The position numbers were made by a program, and so were the translations under genes. Below are positions 1,312 to 18,435 of a stretch of 34,310 bases of DNA, in pieces (the first letter of the stretch is position 1; the number at the start of each line of letters is the position of its first letter). Origin of the DNA: a virus; IMG/VR virus record IMGVR_UViG_3300003321_000238, positions 1-34,310 of that record; one strand, given 5' to 3'. The notes beneath the pieces are model-generated. The model saw nothing but the letters and a program-made list of their open reading frames with translations. It had not been told where the DNA came from and did not search any database.

Positions 1312-1321
1312 TCAATAATCT

Positions 1322-2896: not shown

Positions 2897-2897
2897 C

Positions 2898-3146: not shown

Positions 3147-4177
3147 TGGAGAAGTTTGACCAGAAGTATTTTGAAGACATATGGGGCACAGTACATCGTC
3201 ACGATTACTGTGCAGATCGTGCGCGTATGCTCATCGAAAAATATGGACGGGTCAGATTTCTCGACATTGGTACTGGTTGCGGGTATCTCGTGAAGTGTTT
3301 GCGTGATATGGGCGCAGAAGCCTATGGCATGGATATATCACTATATGCGGTTGAAAACTCACATGGCAACGTAGTGCTCGGTGATGTGTGCAATATCCCG
3401 TTTAAAGACGATTCATTCGATGTCGTTCATTCATCGGGCCTTTTGGAATATGTGAAAGAAGACATGGTAGATACAGCAATCAATGAATGCTATCGAGTGG
3501 GCAAAATCCAAGACCATAATATCGACCACGACAAAACAGACTGGCAACCCGAATATAAATACGAAACATGGAAGCCGATTGAGTGGTGGAACGACAAACT
3601 AAAAAAACCAAAAAAAGTATTGGTCACTTGTCCAACCTATGAAGGTAAGGAGTATTGCTTCCAGGAATGGATAGACAATGTGAAAAATCTCACCTATCCA
3701 AACTACGACATTCTCGTAGTGGATAATTCGCCGACTGACGCCTATGTAAAAAAATATGGCGATCAAGTGCCGATGGTGCATATTGATTTCACTGGACAAA
3801 AAGACCACCCGACATACCGCATGTGCAAAAGCATGGCATATGCACGCGGTGTCTTTTTGAAAGGGGAGTACACCCACTGGATGAACATTGAGGCGGATAA
3901 TATCCCGCCTAAAGATGTCATTGAAACAATGATGAAATATGGGGTTGATGCCGACTGGGTTGCCCACGCTTACTTTATTGATGGTAAGGGCGGCAATCTC
4001 GAACAGGGAATCGGATGCAGTCTACTCTCACGAAAACTCATTGAGGATTTTGATATGAACGATGACACGATTTTTGATGACAGTCCCGATGCCGAAATGT
4101 GGAATTGGGTACAGCAGAAAGGGATTTATAAGACGGTTGAGCTTTGGTACATCATGGACGTGAAGCATAAAAAATAA
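3146..4177 (+). CDS. SAM-dependent methyltransferase fused to a glycosyltransferase
   Basis: Residues about 1-120 form a class I methyltransferase: FLDIGTGCGYL (38-48) is the SAM-binding motif I, GMDIS (61-65) the acidic motif II, and GDVCNIPFKDDSFDVV (79-94) motifs III-IV. From residue 157 a second domain starts with KVLVTCPTYEGKEY, then VVDNSP (191-196) and NIEADN (247-252), the layout of a GT-A fold glycosyltransferase with a DxD-like metal site. The methyltransferase part is short and its C-terminal strands seem missing, so the two halves may have fused with loss of sequence. It lies inside the tail operon with one-base overlaps on both sides. Likely role: modifying a sugar or virion protein. 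Confidence 0.7.
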   Translation: MEKFDQKYFEDIWGTVHRHDYCADRARMLIEKYGRVRFLDIGTGCGYLVKCLRDMGAEAYGMDISLYAVENSHGNVVLGDVCNIPFKDDSFDVVHSSGLLEYVKEDMVDTAINECYRVGKIQDHNIDHDKTDWQPEYKYETWKPIEWWNDKLKKPKKVLVTCPTYEGKEYCFQEWIDNVKNLTYPNYDILVVDNSPTDAYVKKYGDQVPMVHIDFTGQKDHPTYRMCKSMAYARGVFLKGEYTHWMNIEADNIPPKDVIETMMKYGVDADWVAHAYFIDGKGGNLEQGIGCSLLSRKLIEDFDMNDDTIFDDSPDAEMWNWVQQKGIYKTVELWYIMDVKHKK

Positions 4178-5856
4178 TGGCTCTTTCAATACGACAAGAA
4201 ATAAATATCCTTGATCGCGTCCTCTCTGCGGCCGGAGGTTCTTCTGCTACTTCGAGTGAAGCCGTGCTCCTTGATCTCACAAAGTTTGTGAATCCGACTT
4301 GTTATTTTGAGGTAGTGGCAGATTCTACTGTAAGCATTTCATTCAATGTTACTTTGCGTCGTTCCGGCACATCAACAGACGACGCAACCTGTAACGTACC
4401 ACTTCTAACTACGGCATATACCTTGATACGTTCTTCATCGTTTGTTCCGCCAATTGGAAACCAAGAATACGTTGTTTTTATTGATAACACCGCAGGTGCA
4501 ACAAAGAATGTGAAAGCGGCTCGCATAGTCGTCATTGACGCTCCGGCAACAAGCGGAGCTTTTGCTTCGACTGAAACACAGATCGAACTGTGTGGCACAG
4601 GAGCAAGCACTACGACAGGTACTACATCAACTCCGGTAACCAATCCGAAATACTGGAAATATACATCGGCTAACTGGCCTACAAATCTTCTGGTTCAATT
4701 TGAAGCTACCCTTGCAGCAGGTAACACAAAATCTGGTACCACGGCACGCCTCCAAGTGGCTGACGGAACGGGTGATGGATTCACTGGATGGACTGACGTA
4801 TCTGGCTCTGATGTTACAACTACCTCGACAACACCTGGTCGTGTTAGAAGCTCGGGAACAATAGCTCTCACTGCTGGTAGAAATTACCGTGTAGCATTTT
4901 TGACTGGAACATCGAAAAGTGCGGCAACTATTTACAATGCAAAAATCATCATTCAACCGAGTAATATTTCCAATCCAAATGCAAACACAGGTAGCAACTT
5001 TATTGTTGGAGTTGGTTCAAGCACTGACCCTGAAAAATTGGCGACTAATTTTCAACCGCAAGCTACAACAACTGTATATGGAGTATACGCATATGTGAAA
5101 AATATCGGTTCTCCGACAGACAATATACAGTGTGATATTTTTGCTACGAACGTTTCTGGTCTTCCAACTGGCTCTACTCTAGGAACATCTAATCTTATAG
5201 CAGCGAGTGTACTTACTACATCGTATGTATGGACATTTTTCCAATTTGCAAGTCCTGTTTCAGTCACCTCGGGAACAATATATTCATTTGTTTTATCTCG
5301 TACGGGCACGGTAGACCATACTAACTGCTTCTCGGTTTCAATCGCGTCTTCACCACTTCAATATGGAGCAGGAGGAGGTTCACAAAGTTTGAGTAGTGTA
5401 TGGTCTGCTCTTTCAGGTAGTAACGCGATTACTTCAACAGTGGTTTTTGCGGCCATTTCAAATCTCGAACCTCAATATCTTCTTTTGAATACTATCGCTG
5501 GAGCTGGTACTGGCCTTCAAACATATCTCACCAAATGGGATTCAAGTGAATGGTCTGGTGTGACTAACACTTATAAACATGCGGCTGATGCGGCCAACAA
5601 CTCAACGTCGGTCATCGAACTTGACACGGCTGGCGGAACGCAAGTCACTGGCTCGGTAGTGACCTCACCGGACAATGAGGGTATTTCATCTGCTCTCACC
5701 ATGCCGTCAAACGGCAACCTCGATCTCAAGGTCACGACGAATAACGGTGACGTGTACTCCTCCAAGATTCTTGTTGCGATGGTTGTAAACACAATCGCTC
5801 AAATAGGAGGTATCGGAGGGTATGGAATGTCGATGATGGGGTGTGGAGCATTATAA
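4177..5856 (+). CDS. Tail or capsid decoration protein, beta-sandwich repeats
   Basis: 559 residues, no obvious catalytic motif. Residues 1-130 form one beta-rich unit (SIRQEINILDRVLSAAGG, then LTKFVNPTCYFEVVADSTVS). About 150-265 repeats a similar pattern. About 270-400 (FIVGVGSSTDPEKLATNFQP) resembles the jelly-roll domains in surface-anchored and phage appendage proteins, with the usual motif of a time- or aggregate-dependent 'choice-of-anchor' type domain. The C-terminus (GGIGGYGMSMMGCGAL) is Gly-rich. The start overlaps the previous stop by one base. A carbohydrate-binding decoration or fibre role fits but is inferred. Confidence 0.6.
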   Translation: MALSIRQEINILDRVLSAAGGSSATSSEAVLLDLTKFVNPTCYFEVVADSTVSISFNVTLRRSGTSTDDATCNVPLLTTAYTLIRSSSFVPPIGNQEYVVFIDNTAGATKNVKAARIVVIDAPATSGAFASTETQIELCGTGASTTTGTTSTPVTNPKYWKYTSANWPTNLLVQFEATLAAGNTKSGTTARLQVADGTGDGFTGWTDVSGSDVTTTSTTPGRVRSSGTIALTAGRNYRVAFLTGTSKSAATIYNAKIIIQPSNISNPNANTGSNFIVGVGSSTDPEKLATNFQPQATTTVYGVYAYVKNIGSPTDNIQCDIFATNVSGLPTGSTLGTSNLIAASVLTTSYVWTFFQFASPVSVTSGTIYSFVLSRTGTVDHTNCFSVSIASSPLQYGAGGGSQSLSSVWSALSGSNAITSTVVFAAISNLEPQYLLLNTIAGAGTGLQTYLTKWDSSEWSGVTNTYKHAADAANNSTSVIELDTAGGTQVTGSVVTSPDNEGISSALTMPSNGNLDLKVTTNNGDVYSSKILVAMVVNTIAQIGGIGGYGMSMMGCGAL

Positions 5857-5870
5857 ATAACGAAAAATAT

Positions 5871-6137
5871 ATGAACGGAAAAAATATACAACCGGTGAAG
5901 GCAAAGTTCAGCGATCCGACAAATAGCAATCTTCTTGTCGTGCAAATTGCGTTCGACAATCTTATCGACCATTGCTCACTCTACTGGGAAATGGCGACAG
6001 CAGACGAAGAAAATTCTTATGTGAATGCGAATGGAAACGTCGTCATTAAAGGCTCTGATTACACCAACTGGGATGGCAATAACGAATTTCCGTATACCTT
6101 CACTGCAGACCAACTCGGATTAACAATCATTACGTAA
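5871..6137 (+). CDS. Conserved-looking small phage protein
   Basis: 88 residues starting MNGKNIQPVKAKF. The in-frame upstream start at 5841 overlaps the previous gene, so ATG 5871 is chosen; it follows an A-rich stretch and no Shine-Dalgarno. The content (NLIDHCSLYWEMATADEENSYVNANG, then DYTNWDGNNEFPYTF) resembles small proteins found between fibre and lysis genes in many phages, but I do not know a function. It is probably the last gene of the tail block. Confidence 0.6.
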   Translation: MNGKNIQPVKAKFSDPTNSNLLVVQIAFDNLIDHCSLYWEMATADEENSYVNANGNVVIKGSDYTNWDGNNEFPYTFTADQLGLTIIT

Positions 6138-6161
6138 ACACAAGTATTGAAAGATCTTGCC

Positions 6162-6530
6162 ATGAACCCCGAAGAATCAAAACAACCAATATCAAACGAA
6201 CTTTTTTACACAGCCATGAAAAACATGCATGACCGATCAAACGACTTGCACGATTCTTTGGTGCGCGTGGAAGAGAAGATAGACAAGGTGTTAGTCCAGG
6301 CAACAAAAACAAACGGCCGGGTAACAAACCTAGAGGACTGGAGCGCAAACGTAAAAAAGATAGTCGAGACAAATAGCGACAGTATCAGTGGACTGAAAGG
6401 GGATAGGAAATGGATGATCGGGGCCGCCGCAGCACTCACCCTCACTGGCTGGTTTGCTCTTAAAAGCATCGTCGCGGATTCAATACAGTCGGCAAATAAT
6501 CAGTTAGTAACCACCACCCCACTACGATGA
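6162..6530 (+). CDS. Coiled-coil protein with one C-terminal membrane segment
   Basis: 122 residues. After a polar N-terminus, RVEEKIDKVLVQATKTNG begins a heptad-like coiled coil running through NLEDWSANVKKIVETNSDSI, then one membrane helix (WMIGAAAALTLTGWFAL) and a short outside tail. This order matches XhlA/haemolysin-type phage proteins that work with holins. It lies directly before the endolysin and holin-like genes, which supports a lysis role. ATG 6162 is used in place of the TTG at 6147. The stop overlaps the next start. Confidence 0.65.
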   Translation: MNPEESKQPISNELFYTAMKNMHDRSNDLHDSLVRVEEKIDKVLVQATKTNGRVTNLEDWSANVKKIVETNSDSISGLKGDRKWMIGAAAALTLTGWFALKSIVADSIQSANNQLVTTTPLR

Positions 6531-6739
6531 CCCACGACGAACGACTAGAACAACGAGCATTCTACATGGCCAGGGTGACCGCACACTACGACACTCCGAG
6601 ATTACGCAGAGAAGCCCGCAGAAAGTTCAATAAGGAATTTCCCTGCACCTGTCCTGAATGCTCAAAGCCCTTTATAGAAAAACTCTTTGAATGGCCCGCA
6701 AAATTACTAGGTAATTTTTTAGAAAAGATATGCAAATAA
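6527..6739 (+). CDS. Small basic protein with a Cys cluster
   Basis: 70 residues, Arg-rich (RLRREARRKFNKEF), followed by CTCPEC, a close Cys cluster that could bind a metal, and an amphipathic C-terminus (LLGNFLEKICK). It overlaps the coiled-coil gene upstream by 4 bases and the amidase downstream by 10, so it belongs to the lysis operon. Function unknown; DNA or membrane binding would both fit. Confidence 0.5.
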   Translation: MTHDERLEQRAFYMARVTAHYDTPRLRREARRKFNKEFPCTCPECSKPFIEKLFEWPAKLLGNFLEKICK

Positions 6740-7470
6740 AAGAACAATTCCTACCAGTTCCCAGTCTTAGGCGCTCAGGCGAAAAGCTTGACCCCGTTCA
6801 GTTCATAGTCGCCCATGACACGGGCGGCATAGACGGTACGGCCGCAAATAACGTGAATTGGTACACAAAGACCGCCCAAACAGAAGAGAGCCACGCTGGC
6901 GTTCATTTCTTCGTAGATGACCAGGAGGTGATTGCATGCATCCCCGAGGACGAGAAAGCATTCAGCGTCCGCTATAACGCAGGCATCGCTCCGAACGTCG
7001 CTCCGCACTTCATGAATGACTGCGCTATCTCTATAGAACTCTGCTATTTCATGGACACGTCCCGCACACAGAAGTCCTACGACAACTACACCGAACTCAT
7101 GGCAGAACTCTGTAAAAAGTACTCCCTCGATCCCCACACAGCCCTTGTGGCGCACTCCCATCTCGACCCCTCGCGCCGCACAGACCCCGAAAATGCTTTC
7201 TCCACTATTGGGAAAGATTGGGAACAATTCTTAGTCGATGTTTCCAATAAATTAACAGCATTAAAAAATAATATGGATAACACAGAGACAGCAAAGACAA
7301 TTCTTGTTAAGAGCATCTCGGTCACTTTTGACGTCGTATCGAACGGCGAAACGCTCCAGTCGGGCGCAACCGTTCCGGTAACCGTCACCCCGGAGCTTTG
7401 CGCAGCCCTCAAGCTTGAGGACGCAGGACTCATCGAGGGAGGCTATAACGTAGACGTAGAGGCAGCATAA
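6730..7470 (+). CDS. N-acetylmuramoyl-L-alanine amidase (endolysin)
   Basis: Cuts the amide bond between muramic acid and the peptide stem of peptidoglycan to release virions. Residues about 20-165 form an Amidase_2 domain: FIVAHDTGG (His29, zinc), VHFFVDD (57-63), CAISIEL (98-104), and HSHLDPSRRTDP (142-153) with the second zinc His and Asp152, while Arg150 takes the place of the usual catalytic Lys of the GH-D-P-G-R-K-DPG motif. Residues 175-246 form a separate beta-rich tail, perhaps for wall binding or multimerisation. No signal peptide, so export depends on the holin-like protein that follows after one base. Confidence 0.85.
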   Translation: MQIKEQFLPVPSLRRSGEKLDPVQFIVAHDTGGIDGTAANNVNWYTKTAQTEESHAGVHFFVDDQEVIACIPEDEKAFSVRYNAGIAPNVAPHFMNDCAISIELCYFMDTSRTQKSYDNYTELMAELCKKYSLDPHTALVAHSHLDPSRRTDPENAFSTIGKDWEQFLVDVSNKLTALKNNMDNTETAKTILVKSISVTFDVVSNGETLQSGATVPVTVTPELCAALKLEDAGLIEGGYNVDVEAA

Positions 7471-7471
7471 T

Positions 7472-7759
7472 ATGTCCACTACTCTCGTCGTAGTCTCGGG
7501 CTTCTTCCTCGCAATCCTCACGCAGTTCATTAAAGGGACTGTGTACCCAAAGTGGGGAGCGACCGGCGTGCATGTGATGATGTTCATTCTCGCAGCACTC
7601 TACGCCTCAATCCTTGCATCATTTTCCGCAGTTCCGCATCTCAAAATCATCTTTGACCACGCAGTCGGTATCCTCGCTACGGCGATCACCGCATACGAAA
7701 CGTTGCTTTCAAAGATTGGTTTTTCTGGTTCCACTGGCCCGGCACCGATCGCCGGATAG
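7472..7759 (+). CDS. Holin-like membrane protein
   Basis: 95 residues. Three hydrophobic segments are visible: VVVSGFFLAILTQFI (about 5-19), VHVMMFILAALYASILASF (about 34-52), and IIFDHAVGILATAITAYETLL (about 59-80). The short tail is Gly/Pro-rich. Size, segment number and position one base after the endolysin match phage holins, which open the inner membrane to release the amidase. Sequence family is not certain. A hairpin of weak terminator type follows at 7767. Confidence 0.7.
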   Translation: MSTTLVVVSGFFLAILTQFIKGTVYPKWGATGVHVMMFILAALYASILASFSAVPHLKIIFDHAVGILATAITAYETLLSKIGFSGSTGPAPIAG

Positions 7760-7766
7760 CTTGATA

Positions 7767-7790
7767 GAACCGCTCAGTAATGGGCGGTTC
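7767..7790 (+). terminator. Hairpin after the holin-like gene
   Basis: GAACCGC (7767-7773) pairs with GCGGTTC (7784-7790) around a 10-base loop. No T run follows, so it may be a processing or partial-termination site and not a strong terminator. Confidence 0.4.
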
Positions 7791-7836
7791 CATTCAGGTT
7801 ACGCCTGGCATTCATTCACAATTTAAAATCTAGCCT

Positions 7837-7953
7837 ATGCTGACGCTCATTGTCATATTCGTACTCATCAAGATGGGTATAGACCAACGAAAAGAAGAAA
7901 AACCCGCCGAAGTCGCAGACTACGACGACTGGCACAACGAACAAACTCATTAA
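7837..7953 (+). CDS. Small single-pass membrane protein
   Basis: 38 residues: MLTLIVIFVLIKMGIDQR, a short hydrophobic helix, then a charged tail rich in Glu and Asp ending NEQTH. It sits between the holin-like gene and a zinc-ribbon gene. It could be a lysis accessory (antiholin or spanin-like), but there is no family match. Start at ATG 7837; no Shine-Dalgarno. Confidence 0.45.
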   Translation: MLTLIVIFVLIKMGIDQRKEEKPAEVADYDDWHNEQTH

Positions 7954-7964
7954 AAACTAAAAAC

Positions 7965-8156
7965 ATGGCACGGAAACAGAATCAATTTTGCACTAATTGC
8001 CTTCAAGAAGCCCCAGGAATGGGCGTACTTGAATCACAGACGGACAGCACCCAGACATGGCACTGGACATGCGGGAACTGCAATGTAGTTTCGGATGTCG
8101 TAACAGTCAAAAGAAAGCCAGTACTGGTAAAGCGACGTTCGACACGGAAAAGATAG
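7965..8156 (+). CDS. Zinc-ribbon mini-protein
   Basis: 63 residues. Two Cys pairs, CTNC (9-12) and CGNC (about 36-39), suit a zinc ribbon, and the C-terminus is strongly basic (KRKPVLVKRRSTRKR), suggesting nucleic-acid binding. It is the last gene before the RNA-rich island and is followed by a strong terminator at 8222. One of about eleven such Cys-pair mini-proteins in this window. Confidence 0.6.
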   Translation: MARKQNQFCTNCLQEAPGMGVLESQTDSTQTWHWTCGNCNVVSDVVTVKRKPVLVKRRSTRKR

Positions 8157-8221
8157 TGGCTCGGGCAACGCTACCTTAGGCCAACGCTGGAAAAATATGA
8201 TTGTGTACAATCTTTCAGCAC

Positions 8222-8252
8222 AAGCCCCCAGGGTGAACTGGGGGCTTTTTGT
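8222..8252 (+). terminator. Strong intrinsic terminator
   Basis: AAGCCCCCAG (8222-8231) pairs perfectly with CTGGGGGCTT (8238-8247) around GGTGAA, and a T-rich tail follows. It ends the tail and lysis transcription unit. Confidence 0.85.
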
Positions 8253-8284
8253 TACGCTTGCATATATGTAAAGTTTAGTGTAGG

Positions 8285-8293
8285 TTATCCACA
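8285..8293 (+). promoter_or_regulatory. Perfect DnaA box, copy 1
   Basis: TTATCCACA is identical to the high-affinity E. coli DnaA box. It is preceded by GG, as is the second copy at 9614, and followed by a very AT-rich stretch at 8294-8335 that could unwind. Role in replication start or in control of the -10 box at 8315 is inferred. Confidence 0.5.
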
Positions 8294-8314
8294 CCTATTT
8301 AATATAAAAAAAGG

Positions 8315-8320
8315 TATACT
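8315..8320 (+). promoter_or_regulatory. -10 box TATACT of the leader-peptide RNA
   Basis: GGTATACT lies about 40 bases upstream of a short reading frame and 22 bases after the DnaA box. No good -35 is seen, so an activator or DnaA may be needed. Confidence 0.4.
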
Positions 8321-8356
8321 TTAAACAGAAAAAACACCCCTAGGAGGAGGTATTAA

Positions 8357-8428
8357 ATGAGATTCAGGATTTTCGCGAATGAGACTGTACATGTCTCTGA
8401 GCGTGCGGGCCGCTATAGATGCTCATAA
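8357..8428 (+). CDS. Leader peptide of 23 residues
   Basis: Encodes MRFRIFANETVHVSERAGRY and three more residues. The start follows AGGAGGAGG at 8342-8350, by far the strongest Shine-Dalgarno in the window, where most genes lack one. The RNA can form GAGAC-GTCTC within the coding part and GAGCGT (8399-8404) with ACGCTC (8434-8439) around the stop, and a terminator follows at 8472. This layout suggests translation-dependent control or a toxic or signalling mini-peptide. No family match. Confidence 0.45.
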   Translation: MRFRIFANETVHVSERAGRYRCS

Positions 8429-8471
8429 CATCTAACGCTCGTATTAGATACAACCCCTGACTTTCACCTAA

Positions 8472-8500
8472 CGCCCCCATCATAGGGGTGTTTTCTTTTT
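8472..8500 (+). terminator. Terminator of the leader-peptide RNA
   Basis: CGCCCC pairs with GGGGTG (one G-U pair) around CATCATA, followed by TTTTCTTTTT. With the -10 box at 8315 it would define a transcript of about 170 bases. Confidence 0.75.
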
Positions 8501-8514
8501 CCAAAAAATAAAAC

Positions 8515-8648
8515 CCGTACCGAATCTGGCATAGGCGCTCTCCCTTTCAGGAATGCACCGAATGGCGCATGGTTTTTTATTCCTACGCCAGATTCGAAAC
8601 AGGTTGCTGTTTCGGAAGAGCTTTATGAGGGAACCACCCCTGTTTTTT
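8515..8648 (+). ncRNA. Candidate small RNA with its own terminator
   Basis: CGAATCTGGCATAGG (8521-8535) pairs with CCTACGCCAGATTCG (8582-8596) with one mismatch. The interior can fold further (TGC-CC with GG-GCA around 8555-8570). A second perfect hairpin follows, GAAACAG-GTTG-CTGTTTC (8596-8613). The end is a short hairpin, AGGG (8628-8631) with CCCT (8638-8641), before a run of six T. No open reading frame. No promoter is obvious, so it may be cut from a longer transcript. Confidence 0.5.
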
Positions 8649-8663: not shown

Positions 8664-8697
8664 CATAAGCGAGACATTAAAATAATGCAAGTGTTTT

Positions 8698-8975
8698 GAG
8701 TGCAGGCATGCCGAATAGTCGTTAGACCGTATGTCTTGAGGGGAATATCGGGGAGTTCAAGCACCTATTGCAGCCCGAGGCAAACCTTTCAAGAATCATA
8801 AGTGATGGTGACAAGCAGCGCGGTCTTAAAAGTAACGGTCTTGTCTGGAATCTTATTAATCTCTTTAATGGGACGGTGGCCTACAGCCGAAAGTAAGTAG
8901 AGGGAAAAGTGGAGAGGGAAGTTCCATATGGCTCTCCTTGCAAGGTGGAAACGGGAATCCTTGTTGCCTGCACTC
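8698..8975 (+). ncRNA. Structured RNA of about 278 bases closed by an 11-bp stem
   Basis: GAGTGCAGGCA (8698-8708) is perfectly complementary to TGCCTGCACTC (8965-8975). Inside, CTTGA (8735-8739) pairs with TCAAG (8757-8761), while TCGGG (8748-8752) pairs with CCCGA (8774-8778); these interlock as a pseudoknot. Other elements are hairpin AGAC-GTCT near 8724, two CGGTCTT repeats near 8821 and 8838, and GGAGAG pairing with CTCTCC near 8910-8936. No long reading frame on the + strand. It is not RNase P, tmRNA or 6S as far as I can tell from motifs. Family unknown. Confidence 0.55.
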
Positions 8976-8988
8976 AGAACGCAATCGC

Positions 8989-9017
8989 TTGACAGGTTTG
9001 GCAAATAAGCATAGATT
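8989..9017 (+). promoter_or_regulatory. Sigma70-type promoter TTGACA-N17-TAGATT
   Basis: A perfect -35 (8989-8994), 17-base spacer and a 4-of-6 -10 (9012-9017). It lies right after the 278-base RNA and would drive the attenuator leader and the regulator gene at 9132. Its -10 overlaps a hairpin (GGCAA with TTGCC) and the repeated motif at 9015. Confidence 0.55.
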
Positions 9018-9031
9018 GCCCGTCTACAAGT
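9015..9031 (+). repeat. ATTGCCCGTCTACAAGT motif, copy 1
   Basis: Matches 16 of 17 bases with 25285-25301, upstream of the scaffold-like gene. Both copies are the 3' arm of a GGCAA...TTGCC hairpin, followed by CGTYTACAAGT. Confidence 0.45.
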
Positions 9032-9061
9032 TAATACCCATCACTGTGGTCTTACCAGTGG

Positions 9062-9131
9062 TATACTCTATAAGCACAGAGCAGGAGCCTGTGTACGAGC
9101 CTGCCGCGTAAGACCCGGCGGGTTTTCGTTT
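9062..9131 (+). promoter_or_regulatory. Leader with terminator/antiterminator choice before the regulator gene
   Basis: An extended -10 (TGGTATACT, box at 9062-9067) starts a leader of about 55 bases. CCTGCCG (9100-9106) pairs with CGGCGGG (9116-9122) and is followed by TTTTCGTTT, which ends exactly at the ATG of the next gene. Upstream, GCAGG (9081-9085) can pair either with CCTG (9088-9091) or with CCTGC (9100-9104); the latter breaks the terminator. So the gene at 9132 should be expressed only on readthrough. The signal is unknown. Confidence 0.55.
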
Positions 9132-9613: not shown

Positions 9614-9622
9614 TTATCCACA
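9614..9622 (+). promoter_or_regulatory. Perfect DnaA box, copy 2
   Basis: TTATCCACA, again preceded by GG and followed by a GGTATACT-type -10 box (9656), like copy 1 at 8285. It begins 2 bases after the stop of the regulator gene. Confidence 0.5.
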
Positions 9623-9631
9623 GGTACAGAC

Positions 9632-9661
9632 TTGTGTTGAGGAAATTAGAAAGGGTATACT
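9632..9661 (+). promoter_or_regulatory. Promoter of the tRNA-like transcript
   Basis: TATACT at 9656-9661 with a weak -35 (TTGTGT, 9632-9637) at 18 bases. Predicted start near 9668. The leader can fold as CGCGC...GCGCG around CTCC-ACA-GGAG before the tRNA-like part begins at 9757. Confidence 0.45.
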
Positions 9662-9756
9662 AGGTGAGGAGAAGAAGTACGGCTAGTTTTCTGATAACTG
9701 AATACATCGCGCACAACACACTCCACAGGAGACAGGGCGCGAGAGAGTAGCAAGAT

Positions 9757-9928
9757 TCAGGTGTGGCGGAATAGGTAGACGCTTAGCGGTGGTAAGAACA
9801 GTAGGGGCTCACCTCCATCTCTTCAAAATCTGTTCATGCAAGGTGACTATACGAGTAAAAACACGCTGACCAGCAGGGAGTACGAGCTGGTTTTGATACT
9901 CCCACTCGTCAAATCCTTGCCACCTGAA
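9757..9928 (+). tRNA. Interrupted tRNA-Leu-like gene
   Basis: The acceptor arms TCAGGTG (9757-9763) and CACCTGA (9921-9927) pair perfectly, with A9928 as discriminator and no encoded CCA. T-GGCGGAATAGGTAGACGC (9764-9782) is a textbook leucine-tRNA D arm. GCAAGG (9838-9843) pairs with CCTTGC (9915-9920), and T9844 joined to TCAAAT (9909-9914) would give a perfect T loop, TTCAAAT. A 64-base insert (9845-9908) therefore splits the T loop. The T stem would be 6 bp, one more than usual. The 55 bases between the D and T arms are also too long: they hold GAACAG/CTGTTC (9796-9801/9830-9835) and a TTCAAAA like a CAA anticodon loop (9822-9828), but I cannot draw a normal anticodon arm. Anticodon unassigned. 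Confidence 0.45.
9845..9908 (+). other. 64-base pseudoknotted insert in the T loop
   Basis: ACGAG (9851-9855) pairs with CTCGT (9905-9909). Inside, CCAGC (9870-9874) pairs with GCTGG (9886-9890) and GGGAGTA (9876-9882) with TACTCCC (9897-9903), interlocked with loop lengths of 1, 3 and 6, a fully feasible H-type pseudoknot. No group I core is convincing, although GACTAT (9845-9850) is complementary to ATAGTC (9968-9973). It could be a very small intron or a ribozyme. Confidence 0.45.
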
Positions 9929-9932
9929 ATTT

Positions 9933-9987
9933 GCTACTCTCAAACTGCTTCATCAAAAAGTAGCCGATAGTCGGAAAGGACAGTTTG
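9933..9987 (+). ncRNA. Pseudoknotted RNA just 3' of the tRNA-like gene
   Basis: GCTACT (9933-9938) pairs with AGTAGC (9959-9964), and CAAACTG (9941-9947) with CAGTTTG (9981-9987), interlocked. Between them are CTT...AAG and the hairpin CCGA-TAG-TCGG (9964-9974). The strand order stem 1, stem 2, hairpin, stem 1', hairpin, stem 2' is that of HDV-like ribozymes, and its place four bases after a tRNA end would suit 3' trailer cutting. However I do not see the usual catalytic C in the joining strand AAAGGA, so the ribozyme idea is tentative. Confidence 0.45.
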
Positions 9988-10130
9988 TATGGTGTTCAAT
10001 TACGGGGATAGGCCCCGCTTTAGAAAAAAATGGAACGTCGCACAATATACCTTGACAGTATTAAAAAAATATTGCCAACTGACACCTCTCCCATTATAGA
10101 TTAGTTTATCAATTTATAAATTTATCGACT

Positions 10131-10152: not shown

Positions 10153-10350
10153 GATGGCAGTCGCGAGAGAAAGTTTAAACCCTGCATCGAACAATCAAGC
10201 AGGGCTATCTATGGGGGAATACAGAAACCGAGGATATGGAGTCATTCTCCAAGGATTCGGGGAGAACAATGGTGCACCAGACGTTCTTCATTCCCCACAG
10301 GTAGCTCTATCACTCGATGTCCCGACAGTAGGCAAACGGACTTTCTTTCA

Positions 10351-10498
10351 CGACTGCGTCATGCAGTGGATTGGTGGAGGGGGAAGAAGCTACGAATTAT
10401 TTGTATTACCGCCAAAGGTATCGGTAGCTACTCCTGGTAACAGGAAGCGGATAGACAAATAAATCTTCCTCCACAAGTCCATTGCAGAGCAGTGGTCG
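10351..10498 (+). ncRNA. Pseudoknotted RNA within a long outer stem
   Basis: TGCAGTGGATTGGTGGAGG (10362-10380) pairs with CCTCCACAAGTCCATTGCA (10468-10486) at 18 of 19 positions including two G-U pairs, and CGACTGC (10351-10357) extends it with GCAG-TCG across a 3-base bulge. Inside, AGCTAC (10388-10393) pairs with GTAGCT (10424-10429), and TTATTTGT (10397-10404) with ACAAATAA (10455-10462), interlocked. Small hairpins TACC...GGTA and TCCTG-GTAA-CAGGA (10432-10445, GNRA loop) fill the gaps. The plan, and the segments GCTAC, GTAGC and GGAA, match the RNA at 9933. Upstream 10154-10350 also has GGGGAAT/ATTCCCC and TTCTCC/GGAGAA stems. Confidence 0.5.
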
Positions 10499-10649: not shown

Positions 10650-10774
10650 ATTACACACAAACCTGGGGTCAAAGAAAAAGAGAAGAATGGCGCGAAGCAA
10701 GAAAGCAGAACTTCAAAGAAGGACTTGCTTTGGCCGCTCTCATAGCAGTGTGCTTGGTCGCGTTCGCAAATTAA
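10646..10774 (+). CDS. Small membrane protein with a basic N-terminus
   Basis: 42 residues. A charged, Arg-rich first half (WGQRKREEWREARKQ) is followed by one hydrophobic helix (GLALAALIAVCLVAFAN), which is long enough to cross a membrane. The start overlaps the previous stop by 4 bases. Function unknown. Confidence 0.5.
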   Translation: MNYTQTWGQRKREEWREARKQNFKEGLALAALIAVCLVAFAN

Positions 10775-10818
10775 CCTTAGCGATTTTCAAAGGCGGCTTC
10801 TTTTAGCTAAGGGCCGCC
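10775..10818 (+). promoter_or_regulatory. Mutually exclusive hairpins before the gene at 10837
   Basis: CCTTAGC (10775-10781) pairs with GCTAAGG (10806-10812); GGCGGC (10792-10797) pairs with GCCGCC (10813-10818). The pairs interlock, but no base separates the two 3' strands, so both cannot form fully at once. That is the signature of a two-state RNA switch or attenuator. It fills nearly the whole gap between two genes. No T run follows, so control of translation is more likely than of termination. Confidence 0.5.
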
Positions 10819-10836
10819 CCTGAAAGAAAGAATTAT

Positions 10837-11085
10837 ATGGAAATACCAGCAACGTCTTCGGACGAAATGGAGGAGATAACATCTCATACCATACCCGAAG
10901 ACCCGTATGCTCTAACAAAATGTTCCTCTTGCAGGCGTCCGCTCCACAGAACGGACAGCAAGAAAATCGGTACCTGTTGTGCGTGCCGCGGCGAATCGTT
11001 CACTGACAATAACAAGAATTACCGCTTCGGTGACGACTTTCGAGAAGACGAATACAACCTTAAAAGGAATAATCCTCGCTACTAG
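10837..11085 (+). CDS. Zinc-finger mini-protein
   Basis: 82 residues, acidic N-terminus (SSDEMEEITS), then CSSC and CCAC pairs about 18 residues apart that would bind zinc, and a charged tail. The spacer RPLHRTDSKKIGT resembles treble-clef or ribbon folds. Probably a nucleic-acid or protein-binding early protein. The RNA switch at 10775 lies directly upstream. Confidence 0.6.
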   Translation: MEIPATSSDEMEEITSHTIPEDPYALTKCSSCRRPLHRTDSKKIGTCCACRGESFTDNNKNYRFGDDFREDEYNLKRNNPRY

Positions 11086-11086
11086 C

Positions 11087-11281
11087 ATGAAAGAAATAAA
11101 TTACTTCGACACTCCGTATTCCCGCAGAAAGGGTGGCGCAGGGATGGCCGACTTCATGAAAGGTGTTCTCAATGATCGTGCTAAAGATCGAGAACACATC
11201 GTACAGACACTGAAAAACACAAAAAATAAGTTTATACCGTTACAAGAATTAACTATAAAAACAAATGAAAAACATAGCTAA
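11087..11281 (+). CDS. Small charged protein upstream of the annealing protein
   Basis: 64 residues starting MKEINYFDTPYSRRKGG. Rich in Lys and Arg, one likely helix (DFMKGVLNDRAKDREHIVQTLKN). The longer frame starting at 10979 overlaps the previous gene, so ATG 11087, one base after that gene's stop, is used. It overlaps the ERF-type gene by 17 bases. Function unknown. Confidence 0.5.
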   Translation: MKEINYFDTPYSRRKGGAGMADFMKGVLNDRAKDREHIVQTLKNTKNKFIPLQELTIKTNEKHS

Positions 11282-11705
11282 ATCACTCGCAAAATTCCAT
11301 GAACTCATGGGAAACGTTGCAAAAGACGCAGACAACCCGTTCTTCAAAAGCAAGTATGCTCCGCTTGAGAATATCTTGCCTGCTATTAAAGGCCCGCTTA
11401 AAGAAGCAGGACTTGTGTTTTTTCAAGCTCCGACATTTCTAAGTGAAGATAAGCCTGCCCTTGGCACTATACTCATTGACATCGAAAGCGGAGAAGAAAT
11501 CAAAACAGTTGCCCCGCTCATTCTCGCCAAGCAAGACCCCCAAGGTGTAGGTTCGGCAATCACTTACATGCGCCGCTACGCTCTTGTATCTATCCTCGGC
11601 CTGAATTGTGACGAAGACGACGATGGTAATGCCGCAAAGAAACACGACGAACCCTCTGTACAGATCGGCGAAACCACTACCAAACCATCTAACCGCAGAA
11701 TCTAA
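11265..11705 (+). CDS. erf: ERF-family single-strand annealing protein
   Basis: 146 residues. The N-terminal pattern KFHELMGNVAKDADNPFF, then KSKYAPLENILPAIKGPL, KEAGLVFFQ, and DPQGVGSAITYMRRYALVSI with LGLNCDEDDDG is the hallmark of the ERF superfamily (Pfam ERF), which anneals complementary single strands for phage recombination and circularisation. It is at the short end of the family, and its Ser/Thr-rich tail is brief. The next gene starts at its last base and looks like a single-strand binding protein, a natural partner. No nuclease partner is recognised in the window. Confidence 0.85.
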   Translation: MKNIAKSLAKFHELMGNVAKDADNPFFKSKYAPLENILPAIKGPLKEAGLVFFQAPTFLSEDKPALGTILIDIESGEEIKTVAPLILAKQDPQGVGSAITYMRRYALVSILGLNCDEDDDGNAAKKHDEPSVQIGETTTKPSNRRI

Positions 11706-12004
11706 TGGAAAAAATATTTGCAGACGGATTGATTTGGCAAGACCCTCACGAGAAAGCACCTGACTTCATTAAAGGATCGCTTGTAATCAATGCCGAACGT
11801 TTTAACGACTTCCTGAAGAACAACATGCAGTACGCATCTGCAAAAGGCTGGCTCAAAGTGACCATGAAAGAATCCAAAGGAAAGACTATCTACTTTGAAC
11901 TGGACACCTACAAGCCCGCCCCGAAAGAAACACCCCAGACCACTACGACAAGCGTGCAGCCTGACGGAAGCGACCCGATAGACGTAAACAATATCCCTTT
12001 CTAA
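11705..12004 (+). CDS. Single-stranded-DNA-binding-like protein
   Basis: 99 residues. A compact beta-rich region (KGSLVINAERFNDFL, then GWLKVTMKESKGKTIYFEL) is followed by a flexible Pro/Thr-rich linker and ends DPIDVNNIPF. That tip resembles the acidic SSB C-terminal peptide (DDDIPF), which docks repair and replication proteins, though it is less acidic than usual. I see no clear OB-fold signature, so this rests on the tail, the linker and the position after the annealing protein. It overlaps that gene by one base. Confidence 0.55.
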   Translation: MEKIFADGLIWQDPHEKAPDFIKGSLVINAERFNDFLKNNMQYASAKGWLKVTMKESKGKTIYFELDTYKPAPKETPQTTTTSVQPDGSDPIDVNNIPF

Positions 12005-12014
12005 CAACGTATGT

Positions 12015-12635
12015 ATGAAATGGTTTAAACATGAGTCCGACGCTCATATGAACCTAAAGCTCCAGGCCGTGATCGAAAGATACGGCCTGGAAGCGTATGG
12101 GTACTACTGGGCGCTCGTCGAATTGGTCGCAAAGGAGGGCAAAAACTACATGATCTCATCAGACAAGGAATGGCACATATATTTCTCAAAATTCTTAAAT
12201 ATCGAAACATCGAAGCAAAAAAAGTATCTTGCATACCTTGCAGAAAAATCCTTGATAAACAAGGATGAATTGCTTAAAGGGAATCTCTATATCCCTAAAC
12301 TGGAAGAGCGTTGTGATGAATATACAGAGAAAGTCCGGAGAAGGTCGGGACATGGTACGGACAATGTCGGCCTAGAAGAGAATAGAACAGAAGAGAATAG
12401 AACAGATAACAAGAGAACATACGGCGAACTTAAAAAAGTTCGCTTGACGGACGAGGAGTTTAAAAAGCTTAACGAAAAACTAGGGGAGAAGAATACTAGT
12501 TTCCTCATAGGCGAATTGGATGAGTACGTAGCTTCAAAGGGTAAACGCTATCCAAGCCACTACGCCACAATCCTAAACTGGGCCCGTCGAAAGATACAAG
12601 AGCATAACAAGCCGAAAGGCAAAGCAATCGTATGA
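12015..12635 (+). CDS. Replication-initiation-type protein (DUF4373-like)
   Basis: 206 residues. MKWFKHESDAHMNLKL and ERYGLEAYGYYWALVELVA are typical of the DUF4373/Lin1244 N-terminal winged helix of phage replication proteins. It should bind origin DNA or load a helicase. Residues about 110-135 are a polar linker with the near-repeat EENRTEENRT, which is encoded by a short tandem repeat (AGAGAATAGAACAGA near 12377-12403). The C-terminal part (DEFKKL onward, ASKGKRYPSHYATILNWARRK) resembles the tail of such proteins that contact the helicase. No helicase is visible in the window. Confidence 0.7.
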   Translation: MKWFKHESDAHMNLKLQAVIERYGLEAYGYYWALVELVAKEGKNYMISSDKEWHIYFSKFLNIETSKQKKYLAYLAEKSLINKDELLKGNLYIPKLEERCDEYTEKVRRRSGHGTDNVGLEENRTEENRTDNKRTYGELKKVRLTDEEFKKLNEKLGEKNTSFLIGELDEYVASKGKRYPSHYATILNWARRKIQEHNKPKGKAIV

Positions 12636-12931
12636 GATTCTACAAAGTCTACCTTTCCGTATCAAAAGTGGACATCGAACTTGACCAAGAGGATTTTGAG
12701 AAGCTGTCCCAAAACATCCAAAGCGGTAATCTTATCAAAGTAAAACAGGCGATCATAAATCCTTCTTTTGTTGTCGCAATCGTCCCGTTCGAGAAAGAAG
12801 CTCCTAAAAAAGTCACCGGATATGTGAAAGACGGAAAATTTATTGTAACAGAAGAAAAGACCGCCACACTGCCTGACGCTTTCGCAGAGGAATCTAAACT
12901 CTTAGCAGATAAGTTCAAAGTAAAACCATGA
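12632..12931 (+). CDS. Small early protein, unknown
   Basis: 99 residues, starting MRFYKVYLSVSKVDIELDQED. Predicted beta-alpha mix with a Lys-rich tail. The hydrophobic/charged pattern VVAIVPFEKEAPKKVTGYVKD resembles no family I know. It overlaps its neighbours by 4 bases on each side (ATGA), so it is translated with the replication protein. Confidence 0.55.
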   Translation: MRFYKVYLSVSKVDIELDQEDFEKLSQNIQSGNLIKVKQAIINPSFVVAIVPFEKEAPKKVTGYVKDGKFIVTEEKTATLPDAFAEESKLLADKFKVKP

Positions 12932-13125
12932 GCGCAAATAATTTCCTTATGGTATCAAAACTGATTGACGAAGGCTTGGGCTATGCCGTTGACGAGCGCG
13001 ATATAGAGACTGGGGAAATAATCGGAATCGTCGGTCAGAGAAAGACATTAAAATCAGCGATTTATCTAGCACAGGAATACCAGAATGAAAATGAGGTCGA
13101 GTATGGTATCCAATTCGATATATGA
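12928..13125 (+). CDS. Small early protein, unknown
   Basis: 65 residues, starting MSANNFLMVSKLIDEG. Contains an acidic strand-turn-strand (YAVDERDIETGEIIGIVG) and ends GIQFDI. ATGA overlaps on both sides. No recognisable domain; small and acidic, it might bind a host protein, but that is a guess. Confidence 0.5.
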   Translation: MSANNFLMVSKLIDEGLGYAVDERDIETGEIIGIVGQRKTLKSAIYLAQEYQNENEVEYGIQFDI

Positions 13126-13316
13126 AAATATCAGCAAATTGCATATGCGACCTTGAAGGAGACTTTGATGTTGCTTGTCCTTTTCACGGTCAAGAAGCCA
13201 TGTGGAATAAAACAGGATATTATGCGCCGCCAAAATGCCAAACATGCGGAGACTCAAAATATGCTCGGCAAAATAATAAAAAGTTTCCTGTTATCAGGTG
13301 TCCATTCTGTACATAA
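13122..13316 (+). CDS. Zinc-ribbon mini-protein
   Basis: 64 residues with Cys/His ligands CICD, CPFH, CQTC and CPFCT, enough for two zinc sites. The second half (PKCQTCGDSKYARQNNKKFP) is a rubredoxin-like ribbon as found in DNA-repair and heat-shock cofactors. It overlaps the previous stop by 4 bases. Confidence 0.6.
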   Translation: MKISANCICDLEGDFDVACPFHGQEAMWNKTGYYAPPKCQTCGDSKYARQNNKKFPVIRCPFCT

Positions 13317-13317
13317 A

Positions 13318-13491
13318 ATGAATCTATTAGACGAAAACCTAAATAAAAAGATTGAAAATTTGGCAAAAAGAAAAGCCGAACAATCTTCATCGAAGAAAAA
13401 AATTACTGACGCGGAGTACCTAGAGAGAATTAAAAACAAAGACAATACTAAAAACTTTTACGCACAAGGATTTGACCCGAATGATAACTAA
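13318..13491 (+). CDS. Small Lys-rich helical protein
   Basis: 57 residues. Mostly one charged helix (ENLNKKIENLAKRKAEQ) with a flexible end (AQGFDPNDN). The longer frame from 13153 overlaps the previous gene in another phase, so ATG 13318 is used. Last gene before a 379-base gap with structured RNAs. Function unknown. Confidence 0.5.
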   Translation: MNLLDENLNKKIENLAKRKAEQSSSKKKITDAEYLERIKNKDNTKNFYAQGFDPNDN

Positions 13492-13531
13492 AAGTCGATT
13501 TAGTTTCCGAATGTGAAGAAATAGTAACTAA

Positions 13532-13710
13532 CGTGCAGAAATGTGGGGTAGTGCTTGTATGTCTCCTGCTGAAAGCCCACAGAGGACACATAAGTATCTT
13601 GTATCTTACGCCCACCAAGGAATACAAGCATTTTGTACCGCCTGTACCACGAGTACAAACAGCGACGCGGCGCAATAAAATCCCGACCGAGTACCCCACA
13701 TTCCTGCACG
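13532..13710 (+). ncRNA. Structured RNA of about 180 bases closed by a 19-bp stem
   Basis: CGTGCAGAAATGTGGGGTA (13532-13550) pairs with TACCCCACATTCCTGCACG (13692-13710) with a single mismatch. Inside, GTGCTTGTAT (13551-13560) pairs with ATACAAGCAT, which itself encloses ATGT-TCCT with AGGA-ACAT; and TTTGTAC (13632-13638) pairs with GTACAAA (13653-13659), with CGCC (13639-13642) able to reach GGCG (13669-13672) as a pseudoknot. Apparent reading frames on both strands here are a by-product of the inverted repeat. Length and rod shape recall 6S RNA, but I see no firm match. Confidence 0.6.
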
Positions 13711-13736
13711 GTAGATTCATTAATAACTAACAGGGG

Positions 13737-13855
13737 GCGAGTGCTGTGCGGAGGTTCGTCTAAAGGCGATTAATCGCTAGCAAGGACGTTGGGCGCGCGG
13801 GTAACATAGACCCATCATGAAAGAGTAATGCCTTTCACCTCCGCGCAATGCTCGC
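13737..13855 (+). ncRNA. Structured RNA of about 120 bases closed by an 18-bp stem
   Basis: GCGAGTGCTGTGCGGAGG (13737-13754) pairs with CCTCCGCGCAATGCTCGC (13838-13855): 14 Watson-Crick pairs, three G-U pairs and one mismatch. The G-U pairs mean the RNA fold is kept better than the DNA repeat. Inside, AAAGGC (13762-13767) pairs with GCCTTT (13830-13835), alternatively GCGA-TTAA-TCGC (13766-13777) forms a hairpin, and GGGT...ACCC forms another. It follows 26 bases after the RNA at 13532. It may be one transcript with it. Confidence 0.6.
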
Positions 13856-13870
13856 TCTCTAAATAACTCT

Positions 13871-14023
13871 ATGACAGAAGAAATTCATGCTGGTTGTGGT
13901 GGAGTGATTGTCTCGATTGTTAAAACATCTTATCCGCCAATTGCTTGCAAAAAGTGCTCAAAATGCGGCGCAGAAACTTGCGAGCCGCGCCAAGAAATAA
14001 AGCAAGTTGAAGTAACTCTATGA
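13871..14023 (+). CDS. Zinc-finger mini-protein
   Basis: 50 residues. CKKCSKCGAETC (residues 26-37) gives four closely spaced Cys that could hold one zinc. The N-terminus has HAGCGGVIVSIV, a beta hairpin with another Cys; the format resembles ribosomal L-protein-like ribbons. Its stop overlaps the next start (ATGA). Confidence 0.55.
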   Translation: MTEEIHAGCGGVIVSIVKTSYPPIACKKCSKCGAETCEPRQEIKQVEVTL

Positions 14024-14190
14024 AACAAAAACCAATCATATGCTGGGCGGTGATGTATAAGTCCCAAGATAGCAAAGAGCAATACTTTCCGACCTTGTTT
14101 AAATCAAGAAGTGACGCACGAAAATGGGCGACAGGTGTGTCACATAAAGGCACTGTCCACAAGGTAAAGATAGTCCCGATCAAGAAGTAG
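14020..14190 (+). CDS. Small basic early protein
   Basis: 56 residues, MKQKPIICWAVMYKSQDS onward, Lys-rich with a predicted beta-alpha-beta pattern (KSRSDARKWATG helix, then TVHKVKIVPIKK strand). Resembles small DNA-mimic-free inhibitors only in size; no family recognised. Coupled to the previous gene by a 4-base overlap. Confidence 0.5.
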   Translation: MKQKPIICWAVMYKSQDSKEQYFPTLFKSRSDARKWATGVSHKGTVHKVKIVPIKK

Positions 14191-14193
14191 GAC

Positions 14194-14337
14194 ATGAAAT
14201 ATTTAGTAAATGGTGTATTGCTAATAATTTATTGGGTCATCACTTTAATTCTTGTTGTTACATTAATAGGGTTGTTTGTTGTATCGGAAACTGAATGGCT
14301 AGATATTGGTGGTTACTTAGTAAACAACTTGAAATAG
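14194..14337 (+). CDS. Small membrane protein
   Basis: 47 residues with one long hydrophobic segment (VLLIIYWVITLILVVTLIGL) and a short polar tail. GGAC just before the ATG is a weak ribosome site. It might block superinfection or alter the membrane; unproven. Confidence 0.55.
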   Translation: MKYLVNGVLLIIYWVITLILVVTLIGLFVVSETEWLDIGGYLVNNLK

Positions 14338-14340
14338 ACA

Positions 14341-14667
14341 ATGAAAGAAATATCTCTTACCGCACGGATCAAGAGATACTTTCAAGCACACCCGAATGAC
14401 TGGATAAACGGCGGCGCAATCGAAGAAATGGCTATGAAAGTAGTCCGTGCTAACGGTGCGCATTACAAGGCATCACACGCATCAAGAAGGCTGCGCGAAG
14501 CAGAAAGCGGCATAGGTTCCAACGGAAAGCCATGCGAGAAGTTTCTTATAAACAAGATAGAAAACGGCTCCGTCTGGTACAAATATTTGCCCACTGAAAA
14601 AATCATTACTAACTATCACTTCTCCGACGGCAAGATGATTGCCAGAGAGGAGAAAGTCTATGGGTAA
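14341..14667 (+). CDS. Winged-helix-like early protein
   Basis: 108 residues. ARIKRYFQAHPNDWINGGAI, EEMAMKVVRANGAHYKAS, then HASRRLREAESG has the spacing of a winged helix as in small phage regulators, with a C-terminal beta hairpin (KIENGSVWYKYLP). It could control the following genes. No Shine-Dalgarno; the downstream membrane gene overlaps by 8 bases. Confidence 0.5.
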   Translation: MKEISLTARIKRYFQAHPNDWINGGAIEEMAMKVVRANGAHYKASHASRRLREAESGIGSNGKPCEKFLINKIENGSVWYKYLPTEKIITNYHFSDGKMIAREEKVYG

Positions 14668-14821
14668 AATCCTATTCTGGCTTTTCGTCGGAATCATTGC
14701 TTTACTCTCCGTCATTCACATCCTCCGCGAACTACTGACCAAAGATGCCCTGAAGAAGATACACTGCGAGATTAAAAACCCACCATTGAAACATAATGAG
14801 CGAAGCATTACGAAGAAGTAA
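14660..14821 (+). CDS. Small membrane-anchored protein
   Basis: 53 residues: MGKILFWLFVGIIALLSVIH is one membrane helix, followed by a basic tail with one Cys. AGAGGAGAAAG upstream (inside the previous gene) is one of the few good Shine-Dalgarno sites. It ends one base before the methyltransferase start chosen here. Confidence 0.5.
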   Translation: MGKILFWLFVGIIALLSVIHILRELLTKDALKKIHCEIKNPPLKHNERSITKK

Positions 14822-14822
14822 A

Positions 14823-15287
14823 ATGGCAAAAGCACAAGTGCAATTCTCAAAGGATAATGAATATTACACGCCTAAATCTTTTGTAGATAGGTTCGGAACA
14901 TTCGATTATGATCCTGCAACCACAAAAGAAAAGGCAGAGGAGTTTGGTATTGATGAGTATGACACGGTCGAGACGAACGGCCTCACGAAAGATTGGACTG
15001 TGTATAAACGTATATGGATAAATCCGCCATTCACTCGCAAGCATGAGTTTCTACAAAAAGCATGGGACACATACCAGAAAGCAAAAAATGAGATCTATAT
15101 CCTATTTCCGATTGAGTTTGTAACCACAGCACGGTTCCATAATTCCGTTGGAGGGGGTCGGCTCTATATCCCTAACGGCAGAATTAACTTCGAGAGCGGA
15201 CTTGGAAAAAAAGGAAAATCACCAGCGTTCGGAAGTGTCGTAATGAAATTACAAGATAAATGGGAAATTGAATTAATTGAAAAATGA
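14823..15287 (+). CDS. dam: Phage-type DNA adenine N6-methyltransferase
   Basis: 154 residues. The short phage DNA N6-adenine methyltransferase family (Dam, PF05869 type) is indicated by YYTPKSFVDRF near the N-terminus, DPATT (30-34), and the catalytic INPPF (66-70, NPPF of the DPPY class), followed by FLQKAWDTYQKAKNEIYILFP. It would methylate adenine in phage DNA, protecting it from host restriction. ATG 14823 follows the previous stop by one base; an upstream in-frame ATG at 14796 would add 9 residues and overlap that gene. No partner nuclease is seen. Confidence 0.75.
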   Translation: MAKAQVQFSKDNEYYTPKSFVDRFGTFDYDPATTKEKAEEFGIDEYDTVETNGLTKDWTVYKRIWINPPFTRKHEFLQKAWDTYQKAKNEIYILFPIEFVTTARFHNSVGGGRLYIPNGRINFESGLGKKGKSPAFGSVVMKLQDKWEIELIEK

Positions 15288-15637
15288 GCACAAAAATCAC
15301 ACTGCCAGCGATCCTCAATCCCATATCCCGACGGAAAGACAAGAGTGTAAAACTCTCTCTTGAAACCCGCGAGCTTGGACATGATGAAATCTTGACCCTC
15401 ATGTCATTAGAGGGAAGCGAGGGATGGATAGCTTTCGCCCCAAACGCCGAACAGTTGGAAATTCCCGACACGCCCGCCGAACTCGATACCAAAAGCCCTT
15501 CAGAACGCCTCAAAGCCGTTCTTTTTATTTTGTGGAAGCAACAACAGTCAAAAGGAAAGTACGCCGCCCCATTCGAGACGTTCCGACTAGAACACATGGA
15601 CAAGATAATCGAGTATGTCAAAAAGAAACTCGACTAA
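15284..15637 (+). CDS. Small phage protein after the adenine methyltransferase
   Basis: 117 residues. KSVKLSLETRELGHDEILTL, then EGWIAFAPNAEQLEIPD and DTKSPSERLKAVLFILWKQ are typical of a widespread uncharacterised phage early protein found near recombination genes, and a C-terminal helix ends in MDKIIEYVKKKLD. It overlaps the methyltransferase by 4 bases and the next gene by 23. Function unknown. Confidence 0.6.
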   Translation: MSTKITLPAILNPISRRKDKSVKLSLETRELGHDEILTLMSLEGSEGWIAFAPNAEQLEIPDTPAELDTKSPSERLKAVLFILWKQQQSKGKYAAPFETFRLEHMDKIIEYVKKKLD

Positions 15638-16885: not shown

Positions 16886-16889
16886 CTAT

Positions 16890-18028: not shown

Positions 18029-18034
18029 TCCCCC

Positions 18035-18388: not shown

Positions 18389-18394
18389 TTCTAG
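18368..18394 (+). promoter_or_regulatory. Perfect 10-bp hairpin at a stop codon
   Basis: CTAGAATTAG (18368-18377) pairs with CTAATTCTAG (18385-18394) around AAAGTCG. It covers the stop codon of the preceding gene and is followed by a separate short terminator. It may stabilise the mRNA end. Confidence 0.5.
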
Positions 18395-18432: not shown

Positions 18433-18435
18433 CAA

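Follow-up and report, generated by a model that had tools for sequence, protein, structure and literature searches.

The RNA locus and its architecture

The linear 34.3-kb IMG/VR phage record IMGVR_UViG_3300003321_000238, analyzed here at its full length of 34,310 nucleotides (nt) and called the window, encodes a terminase, a gp3-like packaging protein, an amidase, ERF, and NinG, and it carries a tRNA-like RNA whose core occupies positions 9757 to 9927. An earlier sequence-only reading took this locus for a leucine-tRNA-like gene with a pseudoknotted insert in its T loop and offered two readings, a miniature intron and a tRNA-derived RNA that has taken on a new role. We found that the core is enclosed by a helix of 21 positions (9743-9763/9921-9941) whose arms are 90% complementary, with a single A-A mismatch. 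The fold of the whole RNA beats dinucleotide shuffles with a z score of about -4, which is owed mostly to this long outer helix and to the T arm with its insert. The next convincing gene lies about 0.9 to 1.3 kb away, and a Xer half-site and other structured RNAs occupy the space between.

All parts of the RNA lie on the plus strand. The 5' arm of the acceptor-extending helix (9743-9756) pairs with its 3' arm (9928-9941), which has no encoded CCA, and inside them the acceptor-like strands TCAGGTG (9757-9763) and CACCTGA (9921-9927) form the perfect stem noticed in the sequence-only reading, now seen to be part of the longer helix. U8-G9 and a leucine-type D arm, TG-GCG-GAATAGGTAGA-CGC (9764-9782), come next; here, a 22-nt stretch is identical to an annotated phage tRNA-Leu, which bears out the leucine D arm of the sequence-only reading. 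The anticodon region had been called oversized, and indeed the 55 nt of 9783-9837 hold no anticodon arm. They consist of a joining segment J (9783-9795), a helix P3 (9796-9835) whose arms GAACAG (9796-9801) and CTGTTC (9830-9835) close a 28-nt loop and stand in for the anticodon and variable arms, and an AT linker (9836-9837) to the T stem. Within this region, GGTGG (9788-9792) may pair with TCACC (9809-9813) as a pseudoknot, which is plausible and unproven by covariation.

The T stem starts with GCAAGG followed by T54 (9838-9844), and a 64-nt insert (9845-9908) then separates T54 (9844) from T55 (9909), before the rest of the T loop, TCAAAT, and the 3' strand CCTTGC (9909-9920). As the sequence-only reading had noted, removal of the insert restores a TTCAAAT loop, which is closed by the 6-base-pair stem GCAAGG/CCTTGC, and we found exactly the same boundaries in about 40 relatives. 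A comparable T arm appeared in 13 of 200,000 shuffles of 9783-9920. The insert itself is composed of a neck conserved in the family (GACTATACGAG, 9845-9855, and CTCG, 9905-9908) and a variable, pseudoknot-capable tip (9856-9904). Two other arrangements were considered and set aside. The minimum free energy fold of the whole RNA, which pairs D-loop bases with the P3 region, was rejected in favor of the conserved D arm, and a TTAGCG:CGCTGA helix linking J to the insert can form in the window but overlaps GGTGG:TCACC and lacks support in the relatives.

A phage family with a split T loop

The search through neighboring genes yielded few relatives: one phage contig with the same gene order (G002) and one near-identical fragment that begins after the RNA (G001). 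We therefore searched IMG/VR by the architecture itself. The first pattern, a D arm followed by 97 to 127 nt and TCAAATCC, gave 68 stretches, 48 of them without an ARAGORN tRNA call, and most of these 48 show perfect pairing between the 7 nt that precede the D arm and the 7 nt that follow the T stem. Many members share the motif GCARGG-T-GACTATACGAGT...CTCG-TCAAATCC, and a second pattern built on the split T loop, GGT/GACTATACGAGT...CTCG/TCAAATCC (slashes mark the split), gave 34 stretches, of which 27 were new. From both patterns together, the split T loop is present in about 40 distinct phage members, so that homologues with a T-loop insert do exist. The window has the leucine D arm, the split loop GGT/GACTATACGAG...CTCG/TCAAATCC, a P3 helix 2 nt before the T stem, and the covarying acceptor of this family. 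It scores 119.3 bits with model R2 (26 sequences, the window among them), and split-T-loop members score 46 to 119 bits.

The domain that replaces the anticodon and variable arms is hypervariable, ranging from 36 to 104 nt across the members. Five other RNAs (L276, L277, L278, L288, and L300) have the same P3 and a plain GGTTCAAATCC loop (TTCAAAT), with the AT linker present in four of them. Because these relatives follow the same plan with a plain T loop, the insert is an optional elaboration of a shared plan. A looser group (e.g., L274, L310, and L336) combines a normal T loop with a D-to-T-arm distance of about 100 nt, and some of its members stand within phage tRNA arrays; the contig of L336 has, at 2333-2709, a tRNA array together with an anticodon-less leucine-like RNA and a full tmRNA gene. 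Another phage contig, L331, contains two copies of the split-T-loop RNA (255-409 and 5528-5703). It seems that these RNAs make up an apparently undescribed phage family of about 40 members, matched to no described one, whose RNAs retain a leucine-tRNA elbow, lack an anticodon, and have a T loop opened by an extra hairpin.

Covariation behind the tRNA-like fold

The fold was assessed with alignment A5, in which 26 members are compared at 21 pairs. Standard pairs fill 99.3% of the cells, compared with 80.6% after shuffling and 37 to 46% in slid registers, and double changes occur at 14 of the 21 pairs. The covariation score is 0.527 versus 0.139, and none of 500 shuffles reaches it. Compensatory pairs support six of seven positions in the acceptor, three of six in the T stem, and three of five in the insert neck, the last all through L320, where ACGAG/CTCGT is replaced by ACAGT/ACTGT. 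The D arm, the T-loop bases, and the insert neck are nearly invariant, whereas the acceptor, the middle, and the tip vary. Because the members were gathered by sequence patterns, the search itself accounts for part of the invariance seen in the D arm and T loop. The member list of the first pattern was filtered on acceptor pairing; the set from the second pattern was left unfiltered, its register taken as the best within 8 nt.

The pairing extends beyond the tRNA core. The bases flanking the acceptor pair on average at 7.15 of 10 positions, compared with 4.92 of 10 when flanks are swapped between members (0 of 4,000 permutations). A P3 helix ending 2 nt before the T stem has a mean score of 12.4 versus 8.0 in shuffled sequences (shuffle maximum 9.7; 0 of 500), and it is typically followed by AT. 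Many members could also form a pseudoknot between J and the P3 loop, which is likewise unproven. The comparison shows what the family has kept at the level of predicted structure, namely, an acceptor/T-stem stack with D and T arms that would form a tRNA elbow, an extended acceptor, and an opened T loop.

The sequence-only reading also folded the insert as an H-type pseudoknot inside ACGAG/CTCGT. That neck is among the most conserved parts of the RNA, and in the window the pseudoknot is able to form by pairing CCAGC (9870-9874) with GCTGG (9886-9890) and GGGAGTA (9876-9882) with TACTCCC (9897-9903). However, the tips are only weakly structured across the family (mean z, -0.9), so the tip pseudoknot, though plausible in the window, does not characterize the family.

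Evidence against an intron

A leucine tRNA that loses miniature introns from both its T loop and its anticodon region, and so becomes able to decode, would explain why TTCAAAT is restored when 9845-9908 is deleted and why relatives with an uninterrupted T loop exist. We deleted the T insert in silico from 27 members and ran ARAGORN with and without introns allowed. After the deletion, ARAGORN called 1 of the 27 members, leaving 26 with no anticodon arm. When the maximum intron length was set to 60 or 120 nt, 5 of 27 were called, compared with 7 and 3 of 27 for shuffled middles, and the anticodons of these calls disagreed (Cys, Pro, Leu, and Met). A 5-base-pair anticodon arm with a 7-nt loop and a class II variable arm are thus absent, the call rate being no better than for shuffled domains. 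J measures 13 nt in the window instead of the single nucleotide of a tRNA, CCA is encoded in none of the 27 members, the acceptor is extended, and the neck is conserved, unlike a disposable intron. The window RNA does have the leucine D arm and T arm of a tRNA-Leu, but 64 nt interrupt its T loop.

On the window itself, ARAGORN found no tRNA or tmRNA at the RNA locus, and no Rfam model matched the RNA at E≤1, the models for tRNA, tmRNA, group I introns, and YrlA (RF02553) included. Self-splicing and other tRNA introns were rejected on structure, and no Rfam intron model matched. We conclude that the insert is most unlikely to be an intron and that its removal gives no decodable tRNA, which leaves the splicing of paired miniature introns a very unlikely account of the locus. 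The other half of the earlier proposal, a tRNA-derived RNA with a new role, gains support from the covarying family.

Comparison with known tRNA-like RNAs

Compared with bacterial tRNA-Leu, the window RNA has the core of acceptor, D arm, and T arm in common and differs in its split T loop and extended acceptor and in the lack of an anticodon arm, a class II variable arm, and CCA. The group I introns known from tRNA genes of bacteria and phages are likewise insertions in a tRNA-type gene; the window insert is at another site, is far too small, and does not match the group I model. In bacterial Y RNAs (YrlA), a tRNA-mimicking module is joined to a long terminal stem, but the leucine D arm, the P3 domain, and the T-loop insert are all foreign to YrlA.

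The tRNA-like ends and the pseudoknot-capable central region recall transfer-messenger RNA (tmRNA; RF00023), and a reduced tmRNA-like RNA might enter the ribosome by its tRNA-like half. We regard this as extremely improbable: the window RNA has a D stem, unlike tmRNA, its hypervariable middle has no conserved frame or tag, its CCA is not encoded, and neither Rfam nor ARAGORN recognizes it as tmRNA. In a literature search conducted mostly outside subscription journals, no described RNA with a T loop opened between positions 54 and 55 was found, and we know of none.

The closest precedent may be found in phage T4, whose rnaC (species 1 RNA) and rnaD are, like the window RNA, phage-encoded small stable RNAs. 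T4 rnaC (70908-71046 of NC_000866) has a canonical T arm, CCGGG-TTCGAAT-CCCGG, and a long middle without an anticodon. On inspection its architecture is similar to that of the window RNA, but the sequences are not detectably related; rnaC lies in the T4 tRNA cluster, its T loop is uninterrupted, and no leucine D arm of the window type was seen in it. By analogy, rnaC could serve as a precedent for an anticodon-less phage tRNA mimic. It is still listed without a known function (PMC9697503).

Distribution and probable host

The family is seen only in viral contigs, since a scan of 777 genomes from two Patescibacteria classes found no exact copy of the split-T-loop pattern. The best R2 matches in 380 Patescibacteria genomes reach at most 44.5 bits and span 81 to 87 nt, about the length of a tRNA gene, and the best cellular matches of the single-sequence model R1 in Patescibacteria are ordinary tRNA-Leu genes. 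When the whole RNA or its split T arm was compared by blastn with annotated phages and plasmids, only tRNA-Leu D arms or chance matches came back, and three other members returned nothing related, one giving merely an adjoining tRNA gene; blastn is a weak test here because the conserved pieces are short.

About 100 nt downstream of the RNA (window ~10036-10051), ACGTCGCACAATATA corresponds to half of a dif-like Xer site, the other arm being degenerate. The full form is almost exclusive to records named Patescibacteria, Saccharibacteria, Paceibacterota, and similar or to unnamed bacterial bins. Because this Patescibacteria-type half-site lies near the RNA, the host of the window phage is probably a member of the Patescibacteria, and the half-site probably serves as its attP, with dif as the integration site. 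G002 bears a dif-like half-site at the equivalent place (~8353-8370), and among the other family contigs the site occurs exactly in one and as a single-mismatch copy in another. A weak R1 match, a long-stemmed RNA at 8921-9075 (minus strand) of L102, also stands in a viral contig having a dif-like sequence.

A putative trans-acting mimic of the tRNA elbow

Most copies of the RNA lie between genes on the same strand, and some are 13 to 50 nt upstream of an open frame, as would suit a cis-acting mRNA element, that is, a tRNA-like operator or ribosome-binding structure through which the gene downstream would be controlled, in the manner of the threonyl-tRNA synthetase operator. However, the downstream frames are mutually unrelated, and in the window the Xer half-site and the other structured RNAs separate the tRNA-like RNA from the next convincing gene. 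Within 6 kb no conserved partner gene was found, no gene being common to more than 4 of 49 neighborhoods. This lack of a conserved neighbor favors a stand-alone RNA acting in trans and makes a cis element, like a fixed partner, unlikely.

The leucine features raise another alternative, in which leucyl-tRNA synthetase (LeuRS) charges the RNA through its leucine D arm and the leucine passes to an enzyme that works independently of codons. Such charging would fit the near-invariant D arm and the prevalence of A at position 73, found in 16 of 27 members. Against it, CCA is never encoded, a covarying helix beyond position 73 would first have to be removed, and no conserved neighbor could use the charged RNA. 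Charging of this kind is quite unlikely.

We consider it probable that the window RNA is a non-decoding, tRNA-Leu-derived RNA that acts in trans as a mimic of the tRNA elbow. The RNA would be excised from a longer phage or operon transcript, with the extended acceptor helix as the likely stalk for RNase III-type processing, and the processed RNA would then act in trans. Its conserved elbow and insert neck would occupy a host or phage factor that normally recognizes tRNA elbows, as a decoy or as a scaffold, and its hypervariable domains would be the surfaces that meet host-specific partners or evolve under selection for escape. Candidate factors are RNase P, a T-arm or D-arm modification enzyme, LeuRS, and a tRNA-targeting defense protein. 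Of these, LeuRS is doubtful, because the acceptor sequence varies and CCA is not encoded; our preferred guess is a decoy for a host protein that handles or targets tRNA.

Several observations weigh against the elbow-mimic assignment. The sequence of the acceptor varies, the CCA end is not encoded, and the tip pseudoknot is not a conserved feature of the relatives. In addition, G002, the nearest relative by gene order, fills this slot with another kind of long-stemmed RNA, so the locus can do without a tRNA shape.

More tentatively, the family could represent a new class of phage-borne tRNA-elbow mimics with two hypervariable domains, serving as trans decoys or scaffolds against a tRNA-handling host factor and possibly against tRNA-targeting defense; we hold this wider claim to be possible rather than probable. 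The strong covariation behind the fold implies that a tRNA fold can have its T loop opened between positions 54 and 55 to accommodate a domain, and a conserved tRNA-like phage family of about 40 members had escaped both ARAGORN and Rfam. The A5 alignment and R2 model can be used to find such RNAs in any phage genome, and the old question of why phages such as T4 encode stable anticodon-less tRNA-like RNAs becomes testable.

Other features of the window and its relatives

Structured RNAs are unusually numerous in the window for one small phage. Further gene-free stretches (8315-8510, 8512-8605, 8691-8982, 10155-10490, 13528-13714, and 13732-13860) fold into RNAs with long closing helices and complex interiors, and in G002 other long-stemmed RNAs occupy some of the equivalent slots. 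DnaA-box-like sequences (window 8285-8325 and 9614-9665; G002 6900 and 8024), reading TTATCCACA in three places and TTTTCCACA at G002 6900, are followed closely by TATACT-type promoter-like sequences and then by structured RNAs, an order found at matching positions in the two phages. A hairpin with the loop ATAGG (~10003-10018) lies directly upstream of the Xer half-site and has a counterpart at the same place in G002, and its stems covary (CGGGG/CCCCG in the window and CCGCTGG/CCAGCGG in G002).

The G001 fragment (L083) matches the window with 99.98% identity (1-8341 against 10725-19065) and then diverges totally, before the GroEL-like gene of the window; this break could mark recent recombination, an integration boundary, or an assembly chimera. 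The gene in question, at 19732-21234, is a frame of 500 amino acids that resembles, by eye, a GroEL-type chaperonin.
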